Shown: positions 1 through 54,194 of the stretch, one piece after another
How positions within the stretch are numbered: the stretch's first letter is position 1
Layout of the letters: each line of letters opens with the position of its first letter
Source of the DNA: Prosthecobacter vanneervenii
Lineage (GTDB): Bacteria > Verrucomicrobiota > Verrucomicrobiia > Verrucomicrobiales > Verrucomicrobiaceae
Length of the DNA: 64,000 nt
Direction of reading: 5' to 3'
Assembly: GCF_014203095.1 (NCBI RefSeq)
Contig: NZ_JACHIG010000005.1
Coordinates: 186,001 to 250,000 of the forward strand
Made by a program: the position numbers and the translations under genes
Notes under the pieces: model-generated
The model's database searches: none
Told to the model about the DNA's origin: nothing
The model's input: the letters and a program-made list of their open reading frames with translations, nothing else

Positions 1-282
1 GGAACCGTGCCCGGCGTCCATCCACCGCTCCATCCTGCGGGTGAACAATCGCCTGAAGTCGGCTTCCTCCTGCGCACCCCACGGTTTGGGATGACTTTGC
101 ATCCAGGCATCTCTTTCCTGCCTCCACCGTGCTGCCACATGTGCAGGAACGGCATCCGCCAGCCGGAATGTAATGAAGTAAATGACACCCGGCTGGGTGA
201 TATGAGGAAGATTTCTCTGATAACCCGGAGCGACAGCATCCCAGTCAAAAGGCACAAAATCTTTCGGGCCGATGGAGAGCAT
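1..282 (-). CDS. REP-associated tyrosine transposase (RAYT), C-terminal part beyond left edge
   Basis: Reading the minus strand from the ATG at 282 gives 94 open codons to the window edge. The peptide has the RAYT N-terminus: a 'GYQRNLPH' segment, then 'YFITFRLADAVP', and an arginine-rich 'RRMERWMDAGHG' run. These align position by position with 'KYERHLPH', 'YFVTFRLADSIP' and 'RQRKLERLLDEGHG' in the complete RAYT at 18451-19161. RAYTs are single-strand HUH (Y1) transposases that act on REP palindromes. The HUH motif and tyrosine would lie off the window. Short REP hairpins begin 13 bp upstream of the start and are plausible cognate substrates. The family call is strong; activity cannot be judged from a fragment. 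Confidence 0.8.
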   Translation of the reverse strand, partial: MLSIGPKDFVPFDWDAVAPGYQRNLPHITQPGVIYFITFRLADAVPAHVAARWRQERDAWMQSHPKPWGAQEEADFRRLFTRRMERWMDAGHGS

Positions 283-5126: not shown

Positions 5127-5322
5127 GTAGGTTGGGGTGTGTTTGGCGTCGGGAGTTCTCCTGGCTCCCGGGCCCTCTCCGCCAAACCGCCCGACCACGA
5201 GCGTGCGCGTACGCCATGGCGTTGACAGCACGCTCCATCACGGGAGTGCACAGGCCGCTCGCAGGCACATGGCGGTGGCCGTGCGCTGAGGGACGGGCGG
5301 GCTGTCGCCACACCCATCCTAC
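5127..5322 (-). repeat. Family-B palindromic repeat, dispersed copy
   Basis: The gap 5088-5417 has no gene but holds a minus-orientation copy of the long repeat that flanks the RAYT at 18.5 kb. It begins GTAGGTTGGGGTGTGTTTGG, contains 'CCGCCAAACCGCCCGACCAC' and a 'GTACGCCATGG' core, and ends GGACGGGCGGGC...ACCCATCCTAC. It is 196 bp against 142-144 bp for the canonical units, because of an extra G/C-rich middle segment. Confidence 0.8.
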
Positions 5323-16919: not shown

Positions 16920-17021
16920 GAGGGAATGGGGGGGCTGCAAGTTACGCCTGTCGCAGGTCGGAGGAAATGGCTGGCATTATCCGACGTATGTCTCATTCTC
17001 GCCCACTTCCAACCAACGTTC

Positions 17022-18017
17022 ATGAAACATCTGCTCCTCTCCCTGCTTGCCGCGTCCGGCCTGATGGCCGCTGATCACGTCGTCTATGAACCCGCCGGTG
17101 CGGCTAAAGGAAAGCACATCGTGCTGCTCTCTGGCGACGAGGAATACCGCAGCGAGGAGGCCATGCCCATGCTGGGCAAGCTCCTGAGCCAGCGCCACGG
17201 CTTTAAATGCACCGTGCTTTTCAGCCTGGGCGCAGACGGCACCATCGATCCCAAAAACGGAGCCAGCCTGCCCCACCCCGAGGCGCTGGACAGCGCGGAC
17301 GCCATCGTGATGCTGCTGCGCTTCCGCCACTGGGACGAGGCCACCACCAAGAAATTTGAAGCTGCGGTGAACCGCGGCATCCCCATCGTGGCCCTGCGCA
17401 CCAGCACGCATGCCTTCAACGGCTACCCGAAGGACAGCCCCTATGCCGCGTGGAACTTCAACAACAACGGCGGCTGGGGTAAAAAATTCCTCGGCGAGAC
17501 CTGGGTGAGCCATTGGGGCAAGCACAAGGTCGAGGCCACTCGTGGCGTCATCGAAGCTGCCAATGCGAATCATCCCGTGCTCACCGCCGTGAGCGATCTC
17601 TTTGCCAACACGGATGTGTATGAAGCCGCCCCGCCTGCCGACTCCATCATCCTGGTGCGCGGCCAGATCCTCCAGGGCATGACGCCCGACACCGCCCCCG
17701 CCAGCTACCGCAAAGCCACCGCCGCCAAGGTGGAGCAGGAGGTGAACAGCCCCATGATGCCCGTGGCCTGGCTGCGCGTGGTGAAGAACGACGCCGGCAC
17801 CGAAAACAAGATCCTGGCCACTACGATGGGTGCCGCCACCGACCTGACCAACGAAGGCCTCCGCCGCATGGTGGTGAACGGCGTGTACTGGGGTTTGGGC
17901 CTCAACGTGCCCGAGAAGGCCGACGTGACCCCCGTGGGGGAGTACAAGCCCACGATGTACGGCTTCGGCGAGTTCAAGAAGGGACTGAAGCCGGATGACT
18001 TTGTGATGGGGAAGTGA
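17022..18017 (+). CDS. Secreted ThuA-domain protein
   Basis: A 331-residue exported protein; ATG 17022 begins the signal 'MKHLLLSLLAASGLMAAD'. The mature part has the class-I-glutamine-amidotransferase-like ThuA fold: 'HIVLLSGDEEYRSEEAMPML', then 'DAIVMLLRFRHWDE', 'IPIVALRTSTHAF' and 'PVAWLRVVKNDAG'. ThuA-like proteins are abundant in Planctomycetes/Verrucomicrobia and linked to sugar metabolism, but the reaction is not settled. The first family-B repeat starts 82 bp after its stop. Confidence 0.85.
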   Translation: MKHLLLSLLAASGLMAADHVVYEPAGAAKGKHIVLLSGDEEYRSEEAMPMLGKLLSQRHGFKCTVLFSLGADGTIDPKNGASLPHPEALDSADAIVMLLRFRHWDEATTKKFEAAVNRGIPIVALRTSTHAFNGYPKDSPYAAWNFNNNGGWGKKFLGETWVSHWGKHKVEATRGVIEAANANHPVLTAVSDLFANTDVYEAAPPADSIILVRGQILQGMTPDTAPASYRKATAAKVEQEVNSPMMPVAWLRVVKNDAGTENKILATTMGAATDLTNEGLRRMVVNGVYWGLGLNVPEKADVTPVGEYKPTMYGFGEFKKGLKPDDFVMGK

Positions 18018-18098
18018 GGGATTGATTTCGAGCGAGGCTTCGCAACGACGAAAGAGTGAAGCTGCCGCTTCCGAGCGTCTCGTGGCGTGTGTGCTGTC

Positions 18099-18242
18099 GT
18101 AGGATGGGTGTGGCGTAAGCCCGCCCGTCCATCAGCGTACGGCAAACACTATGGCTTACGGTCGTCCTGGTGGTCGGGCGATTTGGCGGAGTAGTGTTCG
18201 TGTGATGAAGAGCATCCTGTGCGCCAAACACACCCAACCTAC
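18099..18242 (+). repeat. Family-B repeat, copy 1 (upstream of RAYT)
   Basis: A 144-bp unit bounded by GTAGGATGGGTGTGGCG and ...CACACCCAACCTAC, so the termini are imperfect inverted repeats. Internal landmarks are 'GCCCGCCCGTCCATCAGCG', 'TACGGCAAACACTATGG', 'GGTCGTCCTGGTGGTCGGGC' and 'GATGAAGAGC'. It could fold into a long hairpin on single-stranded DNA. The gene-free stretch 18018-18450 is essentially this copy, copy 2 and short linkers. Confidence 0.9.
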
Positions 18243-18264
18243 GACGAAGCGCACCGCTCCAGCA

Positions 18265-18408
18265 GTAGGATGGGTGTCGCGACAGCCCGCCCGTCCATCA
18301 GCGTACGGCAAACACCTCGGTGTACGGTCGTCCTGGTGGTCGGGCGGTTTGGCGGAGGAGTGTTCGTGTGATGAAGAGCACCCTGCGCGCCAAACACACC
18401 CAACCTAC
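18265..18408 (+). repeat. Family-B repeat, copy 2 (upstream of RAYT)
   Basis: A second 144-bp unit in the same orientation as copy 1, 22 bp after it, with the same boundaries (GTAGGATGGGTGT...ACCCAACCTAC) and internal landmarks. It is followed by 'GAATGGCTTGCACTGCGC', a linker whose near-copy 'GAATGGCCTGCGTTGCGC' follows copy 3, so the duplicated unit includes the linker. The RAYT start codon is 43 bp downstream. Confidence 0.9.
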
Positions 18409-18450
18409 GAATGGCTTGCACTGCGCCATTCGACATCCAATTCTCCGTTT

Positions 18451-19161
18451 ATGCCATGGACGATTCCCTCCATCATTCCTTTGCCGGTTGATTTCAAAGG
18501 GTTTGATCCGCGCAGTTCAATACCATCAGGAGACTTCACCAAGTATGAGCGCCATCTCCCGCACTGGAGGCTGCCGGGTGCTGCTTACTTTGTCACATTC
18601 AGGCTCGCTGATTCAATCCCTGAGGCCATCTTGGTAGAGATGCAGCGTGAGGCTGAATCATGGCGGCAGAAATTGACTGATCGCTCCATTCCGATGTCTG
18701 CCGACGAACGGGCAGAATGGCAGGATTTTCAACGTACCCGCCAGCGCAAACTGGAACGGTTGCTCGATGAAGGTCATGGCGAATGCCTCTTACGAGAGGC
18801 GCGGCATCGACGCGTGGTGGTTGAGGCGCTGCATCATTTCGAAGGCCAGCGCTGCGAAATGCTTTCCTATGCGGTGATGCCCAATCACGTCCATGTTATG
18901 TGCCGATTATCAGGCGGGTATCGATTGGAGGATGTGTGCAACTCATGGAAGTGGTTCACCGCCCAGCACATCCAGCGGAGCCTCGGCCGGAAAGGGCCTC
19001 TGTGGCAGGATGAAAACTTTGACCGCATCATTCGTGATGCAGAACATTATCAGGCCACCGTCCGCTACATCGCCAAGAATCCCATCAAAGCCAAGTTGAC
19101 CGCACATGAAGCCTCCGTGTGGTTTTGCCAGTCGATTCAAGATGCAAATCGCCCTTCGTAG
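18451..19161 (+). CDS. REP-associated tyrosine transposase (RAYT), complete
   Basis: A 236-residue Y1/HUH transposase of the IS200-related RAYT group. 'PHWRLPGAAYFVTFRLADS' opens the domain. The HUH motif is 'HVHVM' (His146, His148) after 'YAVMPN'. The helix with 'VRYIAKNPIKAKL' carries the probable catalytic Tyr and the family's NP signature. RAYTs nick and join single-stranded REP DNA, usually the palindromes near their own gene. The ATG at 18451 starts the conserved part; the open frame runs further upstream only through repeat copies. The TAG stop is part of the next repeat copy. Two 144-bp repeats lie on each side. Confidence 0.9.
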   Translation: MPWTIPSIIPLPVDFKGFDPRSSIPSGDFTKYERHLPHWRLPGAAYFVTFRLADSIPEAILVEMQREAESWRQKLTDRSIPMSADERAEWQDFQRTRQRKLERLLDEGHGECLLREARHRRVVVEALHHFEGQRCEMLSYAVMPNHVHVMCRLSGGYRLEDVCNSWKWFTAQHIQRSLGRKGPLWQDENFDRIIRDAEHYQATVRYIAKNPIKAKLTAHEASVWFCQSIQDANRPS

Positions 19162-19300
19162 GACGGGTTTGGCGCAAGCCCGCCCGTCCATCAGCGTACG
19201 GCAAACACCATGGCGTACGGTCGTCCTGGTGGTCGGGCGGTTTGGCGAAGATCGTCTCAAGACGTCGAAAAGTCTTCGACGCCAAACACACCCAACCTAC
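19158..19300 (+). repeat. Family-B repeat, copy 3 (overlaps RAYT stop codon)
   Basis: A 143-bp unit starting GTAGGACGGGTTTGGCG, whose bases 2-4 are the TAG stop of the RAYT. It ends CACACCCAACCTAC at 19300. Same orientation and core ('CCGTCCATCAGCGTACGGC', 'GTCGTCCTGGTGGTCGGGC') as copies 1 and 2; the short segment before the right terminus differs ('GACGTCGAAAAGTCTTCGAC'). Confidence 0.9.
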
Positions 19301-19323
19301 GAATGGCCTGCGTTGCGCTAGCA

Positions 19324-19465
19324 GTAGGATGGGTGTGGCGTAAGCCCGCCCGTCCATCAGCGTACGGCAAGCATCATGGCGTGCGAACACGCTCATTGTC
19401 GGGCGGTTTGGCGTAGAGCGCGTTGGAGCAACGAAAGCTGCCGCCGCCAAACACACCCAACCTAC
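19324..19465 (+). repeat. Family-B repeat, copy 4 (downstream of RAYT)
   Basis: A 142-bp unit, the most diverged of the four. It keeps the termini (GTAGGATGGGTGTGGCG... and ...CACACCCAACCTAC), but the centre reads 'GGCGTGCGAACACGCTCATT' instead of the usual GTCGTCCTGG segment. The gene-free stretch 19162-19490 consists of copies 3 and 4 plus short linkers. Confidence 0.85.
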
Positions 19466-19490
19466 TTTCCGGGCAGCGCCAGCTCCCTGG

Positions 19491-20270
19491 TCACTTCAGC
19501 TCAAACACAAACGGCAGGCCCTGGGCGGTCATCATGGCTTTTTCCTTGGCCATGTAGCGGTCGGCCAGTTTGGAGAAGGTGCCGTCGGTGCGCATGCGGG
19601 AAAGGACTTCGTTGACCTTGGCTTTGAGCTCGGTGTTTCCCTGTTTCAGCGCCACGGCCCAGACTTCCTCGCGCAGCGGGGCCAGCAGGGCGCGGGTCTT
19701 GGCGGCGTGCTTGGCGTGGTAGTTCATGATGGAGAGCTGGTCGTAGATCCAGGCGTCCACGTTGCCATTCACCACCTCCATCACGCAGGATACATCGGCA
19801 TCCAGGGCGATGATCTTGGCTTCCTTGAGGTTCGCGCGTGCCCAGCTCTCTCCCGTGGTGCCCAGGCGCACAGCGATCTTGCGGCCCGGTGCTTTCAAAT
19901 CGTCGGCGTTTTGCAGCGTGGAGTCTTTGGCCACGAGCACGGCCAGCCCGGTCTTCACGTAGGGCTCGGAGAAGTCGATGGACTGGCGGCGCTCAGGCGT
20001 GGCCGTCATGGAGGAGATGACGAGGTCGATGGAGCCGGAGCGCAGCGCGGTGATGAGGCCGTCGAAGTTGATGTTGCGGAACTCGACTTCTTTGCCGAGC
20101 GACTTGGCGATCTCGCGCCCTACCTCGATGTCTACGCCGGTGATGTTGCCGGATTCATCCACGAACTCAAAGGGTGGATACGTGGCATCCGTGCCGATGA
20201 TGAGCTTGTTGCCACGGGAGCAGGCACTTAGCAGCAGGCAGAGGAAGAAAGCGGAAAGGAGGTGCTTCAT
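19491..20270 (-). CDS. Amino-acid-type ABC transporter substrate-binding lipoprotein
   Basis: A 259-residue periplasmic binding protein (SBP_bac_3). ATG 20270 starts a lipoprotein signal 'MKHLLSAFFLCLLLSACS'. 'IIGTDATYPPFEFVDESGNI' is the typical first strand for polar amino acid receptors, followed by 'GVDIEVGREIAKSLGK', 'LVISSMTATPERRQSIDFSE' and 'AVRLGTTGESWA'. No permease or ATPase gene is adjacent, so it may work with a distant transporter or as a sensor. An imperfect inverted repeat lies just upstream. Confidence 0.88.
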   Translation of the reverse strand: MKHLLSAFFLCLLLSACSRGNKLIIGTDATYPPFEFVDESGNITGVDIEVGREIAKSLGKEVEFRNINFDGLITALRSGSIDLVISSMTATPERRQSIDFSEPYVKTGLAVLVAKDSTLQNADDLKAPGRKIAVRLGTTGESWARANLKEAKIIALDADVSCVMEVVNGNVDAWIYDQLSIMNYHAKHAAKTRALLAPLREEVWAVALKQGNTELKAKVNEVLSRMRTDGTFSKLADRYMAKEKAMMTAQGLPFVFELK

Positions 20271-20287
20271 GAGGAATCGGTTTTTTT

Positions 20288-20368
20288 GAACCACTAATCG
20301 AACACTAATCAGACACTAATGCCAGAGTCTGAATTATGAGTGTTCCATTAGTGTGAGATTAGTGGTTC
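20288..20368. repeat. Inverted repeat between nadE and the binding-protein gene
   Basis: Arms 20288-20309 (GAACCACTAATCGAACACTA...) and 20347-20368 match at 20 of 22 positions in inverted orientation, with a 37-bp spacer that holds a further ACACTAAT copy. It is built from repeated CACTAAT units, unlike the GC-rich neighbourhood. It may act as a transcript-end hairpin for nadE, but no clean T-run follows on the minus strand. Confidence 0.6.
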
Positions 20369-54016: not shown

Positions 54017-54160
54017 GTAGGTTGGGGTGTGTTTGGCGTCCAAGCCCCTCTTTATCGCACGAACACCTCCTCGCCAAACCGCCCGACCACGAGGACGCTC
54101 CTGCCCCTCAGTATTTGCAGCACGCTGATGGACGGGCGGGCTAGCGCCACACCCATCCCA
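54017..54160 (-). repeat. Family-B palindromic repeat, dispersed copy
   Basis: A 144-bp minus-orientation copy of the RAYT-flanking repeat: starts GTAGGTTGGGGTGTGTTTGG, contains 'GCCAAACCGCCCGACCACGA' and 'CTGATGGACGGGCGGGCTAG', and ends CACACCCATCCCAC. It lies between the convergent ends of the cyclophilin and tilS genes. Confidence 0.85.
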
Positions 54161-54194
54161 CTTCTCAGAGTGGGCTAAAAACCAACACTCTCCG

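Follow-up and report, generated by a model that had tools for sequence, protein, structure and literature searches.

A probable REPtron with long REPINs in Prosthecobacter vanneervenii, and its differing chromosomal sites in related species

In the genome of Prosthecobacter vanneervenii, a RAYT gene lies between two pairs of direct repeats of about 144 bp, which raises the question of whether such repeats are a new class of RAYT substrate or belong to a kind of element already known. The window analyzed here is a stretch of 64,000 nucleotides (G000:C5:186001-250000) of this genome (G000, a 6.66-Mb draft), and coordinates are positions in the window unless a contig or another locus is named. 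The repeat units do not represent a novel class of RAYT substrate: each is a dimer of two GTAG REPs, of the REPIN/BIME kind. The locus is very probably a REPtron, in which copies of a REPIN surround the cognate RAYT (TnpA-REP, a single-tyrosine HUH nuclease). REPtrons are a known kind of system; the long REPINs of this one and its differing chromosomal sites in related species are unusual.

The four units lie in one orientation (+), two on each side of the RAYT gene, with the coordinates and sizes given in the preliminary description: unit 1 at 18099..18242 and unit 2 at 18265..18408 (144 bp each), unit 3 at 19158..19300 (143 bp), and unit 4 at 19324..19465 (142 bp), each a head-to-head REP dimer. 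The start-to-start distance is 166 within each pair. The units had been called near-identical, which holds for units 1 and 2 (92%) and not for the other five pairs (78-83%); the linkers (+), at 18243..18264 (22 nt) and 19301..19323 (23 nt), had been called conserved, which holds for their length and not for their sequence, which varies much within the locus. The RAYT gene between the unit pairs (18451..19161, +) is indeed complete, an open reading frame of 236 aa with an HUH motif and a catalytic-type tyrosine; its start codon is at 18451, residue numbering starts at 18448, and its stop codon TAG (19159-19161) is part of the GTAG of unit 3. The flanking genes, assigned by Pfam, encode a ThuA protein on the left (16926..18017, +) and a solute-binding protein, SBP_bac_3, on the right (19491..20294, -). 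An Rfam search of 17900-19600, with E values up to 1, matched no known RNA family.

Aligned copies and hairpin extraction resolve each unit into a short REP of 32 nt, a spacer, and an inverted REP of about 70 nt, a plan found in nearly every full unit examined. In units 1 to 4, the short REPs (+) occupy 18099-18130, 18265-18296, 19158-19189 and 19324-19355, and the long REPs (-) occupy 18172-18242, 18338-18408, 19231-19300 and approximately 19397-19465, the inner end of the last being set by analogy, as the automatic hairpin call paired differently in that copy. The short REP consists of GTAG, a lower stem of 8 bp that begins with the last G of GTAG, an asymmetric internal loop (two bases versus one), an upper stem of 3 bp, and a 4-nt loop. 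The long REP, 69-71 nt overall, combines GTAG and a like lower stem and internal loop with an upper stem of about 8 bp and a terminal loop of about 33 nt that is constant in length and variable in sequence. Each REP thus has GT[AG]G at the base of an imperfect hairpin, and each repeated unit consists of two inverted REPs, as in REPINs/BIMEs. When six strands (the plus strand of all four units and the minus strand of two) were folded as single-stranded DNA, each was more stable than any of its 200 dinucleotide shuffles (z -3.1 to -6.1).

We read 91 full units in nine genomes (that of P. vanneervenii and those of eight related species); four misfit the loop pattern and were excluded from the loop counts. 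The stretch between the upper-stem arms of the long REP measures 33-35 nt in 84 of the 87 readable units, while the loop is only 51% identical between copies, compared with 78% in the preceding part of the unit (672 equal-length pairs), so that loop length is kept and loop sequence much less so. Examination of the loop for self-complementarity revealed no consistent pattern. A fixed-length, free-sequence loop separates hairpin geometry from sequence in recognition. The common lower stem and differing upper stems may, we infer, prevent a merger of both hairpins into a single long, perfect one.

The RAYT protein contains the motifs PNHVH and YIAKNP, that is, HUH plus a single tyrosine. It exceeds the cut-off of Pfam Y1_Tnp (30.5 bits; cut-off 23) and scores just below the curated cut-off of NCBIfam REP_Tyr_transpos (77.2 bits versus 80; E 1.2e-21). 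Its top PDB profile match is 4er8, the E. coli TnpA-REP, which also ranked first in Foldseek with the predicted structure (mean pLDDT 83; E 9.6e-7) and was the best match in VIA-align (Z 13.4, rmsd 2.9, 141 residues). Across the 16 aligned rows of the clade described below, from which a truncated RAYT in G039 was excluded, H147, H149, Y207, W186, Q187 and R193 are invariant, and R196 almost so. In the alignment with 4er8, W186, Q187 and R196 stand opposite E. coli W94, Q95 and R104, a region linked to GTAG recognition (PMC6006769; this and the other papers are cited here from excerpts). D192 and R193 stand in place of E. coli E100 and H101, replacements known from other subclasses, 2.5 and 2.7 (PMC6006769).

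Five RAYT-like genes were found in the P. vanneervenii genome, the other four being 38-43% identical to the window RAYT, which is present in a single copy; several near-identical gene copies per genome, the pattern of IS200/IS605, were not found. Two of the four (L010 and L011) clearly have their own, different GTAG hairpins, as judged by eye, and the other two are less clear. A second RAYT, 38% identical and with its own GTAG repeat, lies at the left edge of the window (1-261; G000:C5:185674-186261), adjoining 615-1389, a stretch whose homologue in the related genome G001 neighbours the REPtron of the clade studied here, so that two RAYT kinds are found at one locus.

The likeness to the E. 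coli REPtron extends from the protein, with its HUH single-tyrosine fold and its W/Q/R positions tied to GTAG recognition, to the repeats, which have GTAG at the hairpin foot and an unpaired internal region in the stem (PMC8266576, PMC6006769); there are also, as in E. coli with its y and z REPs, two REP kinds inversely paired (BIMEs) and several dimers beside the gene. The differences are the REP lengths (32 and about 70 nt here, 29-37 in E. coli), the D/R in place of E100/H101, the host, which belongs to Verrucomicrobiota, and the protein, whose 236 aa include additional predicted helices placed after the first strand and before the HUH strands. In E. coli, GTAG and the unpaired stem region are required, and cutting occurs at CT (PMC8266576). 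By analogy with the E. coli TnpA-REP, the RAYT would bind GTAG and the interrupted stem on a strand exposed, for example, in replication, cut next to the hairpin and join the cut end elsewhere; the dimers would thereby spread as non-autonomous elements, and tandem arrays with a period of about 166 bp would arise locally. The dispersal of the unit across the genome, as read from sequence, agrees with the earlier proposal of a non-autonomous element that the RAYT copies, copying by the RAYT being putative.

Other published systems share parts of this picture. In the Pseudomonas REPINs, including the R0 family, an inverted REP doublet is the repeated unit and a cognate RAYT is present (PMC2817692, PMC3390384); these are reported as 89-bp units (612 copies) or as pairs 60-70 bp apart with 500-1500 REP copies (PMC2817692, PMC3390384), 60-70 bp being the usual spacing of REP pairs (PMC3390384), whereas the dimers beside the RAYTs studied here span 135-260 bp and the copies number in the tens. 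For Stenotrophomonas, co-evolution of RAYTs and REPs has been described, with REPs that follow the RAYT stop codon directly or lie only a very short way from it (PMC2817692). Compared by motifs and length, the protein resembles TnpA-Y1 subclasses 2.4 and 2.7 (NHVH, WQ, a Y motif ending in NP, and long GT[AG]G REPs; PMC6006769, Table 1), and shares the changes of E100 to D and H101 to R with 2.5 and 2.7; it differs from 2.4 and 2.7 in its Y motif, YIAKNP, and in its 236 aa, which exceed their medians of 194 and 213 (PMC6006769).

Di Nocera et al. (2013) described GTAG REPs, head-head heterodimers with spacers, REPtrons and REP families, among them families of the verrucomicrobium Opitutus terrae (PMC3733652). 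The families in that paper share with the units studied here the GTAG tag, HH heterodimers (mostly 20-100 bp apart), REPtrons and, in some, variable loops; they differ in having stems of 6-13 bp and mostly short loops, with up to 27 bp in one family (PMC3733652). The excerpts of PMC3733652 contain no description of a loop of about 33 nt with fixed length and free sequence, the comparison being one of descriptions. A literature search for Prosthecobacter together with extragenic palindromes found no paper, and among the matches listed for RAYT or REP in Verrucomicrobia, PMC3733652 was the only one on the subject. Of the longer, little-described class envisaged beforehand, the GTAG head-to-head arrangement is thus already in the literature (PMC3733652, PMC6006769), and what stands is the size, both the REP of about 70 nt and the dimer of 135-260 bp beside RAYTs being unusual. 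The published REP size of 21-65 nt fits 6 of 32 REPs (31-32 nt) and is exceeded by 26 (66-71 nt); such long REPs and long dimers are unusual in that they go beyond the usual picture of REPs.

The units are dispersed at many sites of the P. vanneervenii genome, as is typical of REPINs/BIMEs, which excludes the possibility that they are absent elsewhere in this genome. With unit 1 as the BLAST query, 36 matches were obtained, query included, and REP-core patterns with up to three mismatches detected 41 short-REP and 15 long-REP cores (none with the reversed-pattern control); the latter count is probably low, because some copies have one extra C in the arm. Within the window, BLAST and the aligned copies place a full-length dispersed unit at 54017..54161 (-), and an interrupted one lies at 5127..5322 (-), with matching pieces at 5127-5234 and 5278-5322. 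Many dispersed copies have unrelated left flanks that agree only from GTAG, and right flanks that agree only over a short tail past CTAC. In a set of 86 units, this partly conserved tail next to CTAC reads roughly GRCCRGAGCGCCGCGC, and on the left it is chiefly the last base that is conserved; the set mixes tandem and related copies, so the flank pattern is a description rather than a test. The 22-23-nt linkers of the tandem pairs stand where the CTAC-side tail stands.

Six copies in this genome have 60-130 bp of flanking sequence in common, on one side or both, a feature that simple movement of dimers leaves unexplained. These copies (G000:C12:144953-176966 plus copies on C2, C5 and C6), with similar flanks in G021 and G030, suggest a longer composite subfamily. 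In two genomes, the short REP is broken up or bordered, at nearby places, by a short palindrome (TTCGAAGCAC...GTGCGAAGAATGG-like; L020 near 2030-2075, L216 near 104-180, and G000:C6:8002-8086), as if another repeat family targeted the REP. A single unit is present at G000:C1:1289790-1289933, and what appears to be the same site in G029 (G029:C37:1-569 and the end of G029:C49) holds at least three tandem units and a further one that breaks off where the contig ends; local copy number thus looks to vary between species.

A search of 76 genomes, that of P. vanneervenii included, identified complete RAYTs 52-78% identical to the window RAYT in 15 further genomes, as well as the truncated one in G039. 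GTAG head-to-head dimers of 135-260 bp flank all 16 complete RAYTs of this clade, so that the arrangement of a gene flanked by its own REPs holds for the window and all 15 complete clade relatives. Dimers are present on both sides in 14 of the 16; in G037 a full dimer on one side stands opposite a single REP, and in G018 one side lies past the contig end. At the same setting, such a pair was detected at 1 of 17 RAYTs with at most 47% identity (L010-L013, L050-L062), namely at L061, where it is of the GTGG type. A looser setting revealed shorter GTAG dimers of other sequences beside more distant RAYTs of Verrucomicrobiota and Planctomycetota (for example, L123, L124, L126, L127, L139, L141 and L149), so that the dimer arrangement is general and not special to the clade, the long dimers being those seen in the clade. 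The background of the dimer detector is 0.058 pairs per kb in mononucleotide-shuffled loci at the lower threshold of 10 of 14, and the clade dimers mostly score 12-14.

The lower stems of the REPs read GATGGG or GACGGTC in G000, G012 and G001, GCCGGGT in G009 and G022, GCCGGAT in five species, GGCGGGT in three, and a GTTGGGA-like sequence in three. In the midpoint-rooted RAYT tree, the sequences group by stem type, and the two GCCGGGT species diverge immediately outside the group that contains the window RAYT (support of those forks 94/88 and 96/93); short REPs are confined to G000, G012, G001, G009 and G022, one group in the tree. RAYT distances correlate with REP-stem distances (Mantel r 0.51; 0 of 20,000 permutations as high), and 214 of 256 lower-stem cells in 32 REPs are Watson-Crick, a count reached by none of 5,000 shuffles; these figures overstate independence, because the best hairpin per side was taken and the rows are related. 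Stem pair 3 is paired in all 32 REPs, as CG (14), TA (8), GC (6) or AT (4). The hairpin table omits the L035 dimer at 2776-2915, the long L039 dimer at 1079-1316, the second, partly degenerate L042 dimer at 2226-2396, and two N-containing L048 dimers. As far as the sequences tell, the REP stems track the RAYT tree, with compensatory changes between their arms, and the link between the units and the RAYT that had been proposed is, with the dimers at all complete clade RAYTs, well supported.

In 14 of the 16 clade RAYTs, the reading frame stops at the TAG within the GTAG of the next repeat downstream, or of what is left of that repeat (a remnant in G012). We rejected this as a striking feature: GTAG ends 44 of 122 RAYTs overall and 30 of 106 outside the clade (p 0.04), and among control ORFs of at least 200 aa in seven stretches, a few of which may be RAYTs, 14 of 90 end likewise, so that mostly shared descent and a mild general trend are involved.

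Across genomes, the unit was detected in 18 of the 76, all within the genus (18 of 47, P. vanneervenii included; 0 of 29 outside), the counts per genome being minima, as part of the candidates per genome was scored. Eleven genomes have at least five matches, and a RAYT with at least 72% identity is present in three of these (G000, G012 and G001) versus none of the 36 other genus genomes (Fisher p 0.010). The other eight unit-rich assemblies lack a cognate RAYT according to a profile search that covered nine genomes, including all of these, and in which the only clade RAYT was that of G027, flanked by another REP type. Units in genomes without a related RAYT, which had been named as evidence against the link, were thus encountered in part: all eight assemblies hold more distant RAYT-like genes, with none nearer than about 47% identity in seven. 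Several contigs begin or finish in units, and assembly may therefore have dropped a RAYT enclosed by repeats. We rejected such a gap as the explanation for G002 at the REPtron site of G012, where a single contiguous contig of G002 carries other genes and no RAYT, the surrounding blocks being 80-89% alike; a gap elsewhere in G002 may apply.

Within genomes, unit copies are 72-81% alike on average, and median nearest-neighbour identity is 0.83-0.915 in six genomes without a cognate RAYT and 0.86-0.915 in the three with one; by this measure of within-genome identity, which is biased in that copies were sampled by similarity to the window's unit, no decay after RAYT loss was seen. Dimers of the GGCGGGT type match in 6 of 48 genus genomes and are strong only in the three with the corresponding RAYT. 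A strict tie between REP family and RAYT type across genomes was rejected, given that GCCGGAT-type dimers match in 15 of 48 genus genomes and GTTGGGA-type dimers in 12 of 48, with genomes that lack the matching RAYT among them (G015, G028). In G021, a unit lies some 500 bp away from a distant RAYT (L099); this was taken as coincidence rather than association, because this RAYT is 37% identical and the unit is on a single side. Units and RAYT are therefore strongly associated within loci, and weakly so when genomes are compared for the presence of both.

The window's insertion site was traced through the ThuA gene, which was searched in 48 genus genomes, P. vanneervenii included, and matched in 47; loci were compared in P. 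vanneervenii and 29 relatives. The ThuA and SBP_bac_3 genes are adjacent without the REPtron in 17 of the 29 relatives, and in 12 the SBP_bac_3 gene was not found within the examined stretch. Sixteen of the 17 gaps, of 16-610 bp, were read by eye and contain no RAYT and no such unit; the seventeenth, in G026 (59 bp), is too short for either. The larger gaps in G029 and G001 contain two small ORFs that resemble a HicA/HicB pair. The flanking genes converge on the insertion site, a 3'-3' gap, and by eye, the empty site in G008, G015, G021 and G036 (L279, L276, L267 and L280) contains other hairpin-like repeats, so this gap may attract several repeat families.

Such a position would also suit units retained chiefly as signals in RNA or in chromosome structure (3'-end hairpins, terminators or protein-binding sites), with a domesticated RAYT and functional rather than parasitic copies. 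This appears unlikely. The convergent gap and the other hairpin repeats in several relatives favour it, as do the G-T pairs in REP stems and the 10 of 16 dispersed units in the P. vanneervenii genome that touch no ORF of at least 110 aa, by crude longest-ORF picking (the ORFs overlapped by the other six may be spurious); against it, site occupancy varies between species at the loci compared, the copies have diverged within genomes to the extent given above, and no Rfam family was matched at the locus, although a function would be compatible with all of these.

The REPtron occupies three different loci in the three species with the closest RAYTs: G012 and G001 have no RAYT at the window's site and carry theirs elsewhere. 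Neighbouring genes are common only to the clade RAYTs of G042 and G019, G016 and G027, and G011 and G018 (one gene), which gives about 13 neighbourhoods among the 16 clade RAYTs, a crude gene comparison in which, with crude ORF picking and some short contigs, sharing may be missed. That the 144-bp unit is the end of a larger composite element, with the RAYT and units moving together as an IS, would agree with these differing locations and with the single block that the RAYT and units form between genes adjacent in relatives, yet it is decidedly unlikely, as one RAYT copy in the P. vanneervenii genome is set against dozens of unit copies without a RAYT. Spread of the units by homologous recombination or segmental duplication, with the RAYT among them by chance or as a by-product, is very improbable: the 166-bp tandem pairs with 92% identity of units 1 and 2, the six copies alike beyond the unit ends and the unit-rich assemblies that mostly lack a cognate RAYT speak for it, but not the dimers at all 16 complete clade RAYTs in about 13 neighbourhoods, the stems that follow the RAYT tree, or the unrelated left flanks that agree only from GTAG and the short right tail after CTAC.

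For the REPtron, the differences in place fit relocation of a cassette and gain by transfer alike. Tentatively, the REPtron of this genus might still move as a unit, the RAYT between direct-repeat dimers being a cassette that leaves and enters sites; a lost cassette would leave dimers without a RAYT. Exit and entry could occur by the action of the RAYT or by recombination with dispersed dimers. If true, such movement would contradict the published view, derived from other phyla, that RAYT genes keep their chromosomal location. With 16 diverged, stem-matched RAYT/REP pairs at many positions, and a site that is empty in 17 relatives, the genus is a natural test bed for asking what determines RAYT-REP specificity and whether REPtrons are still mobile.
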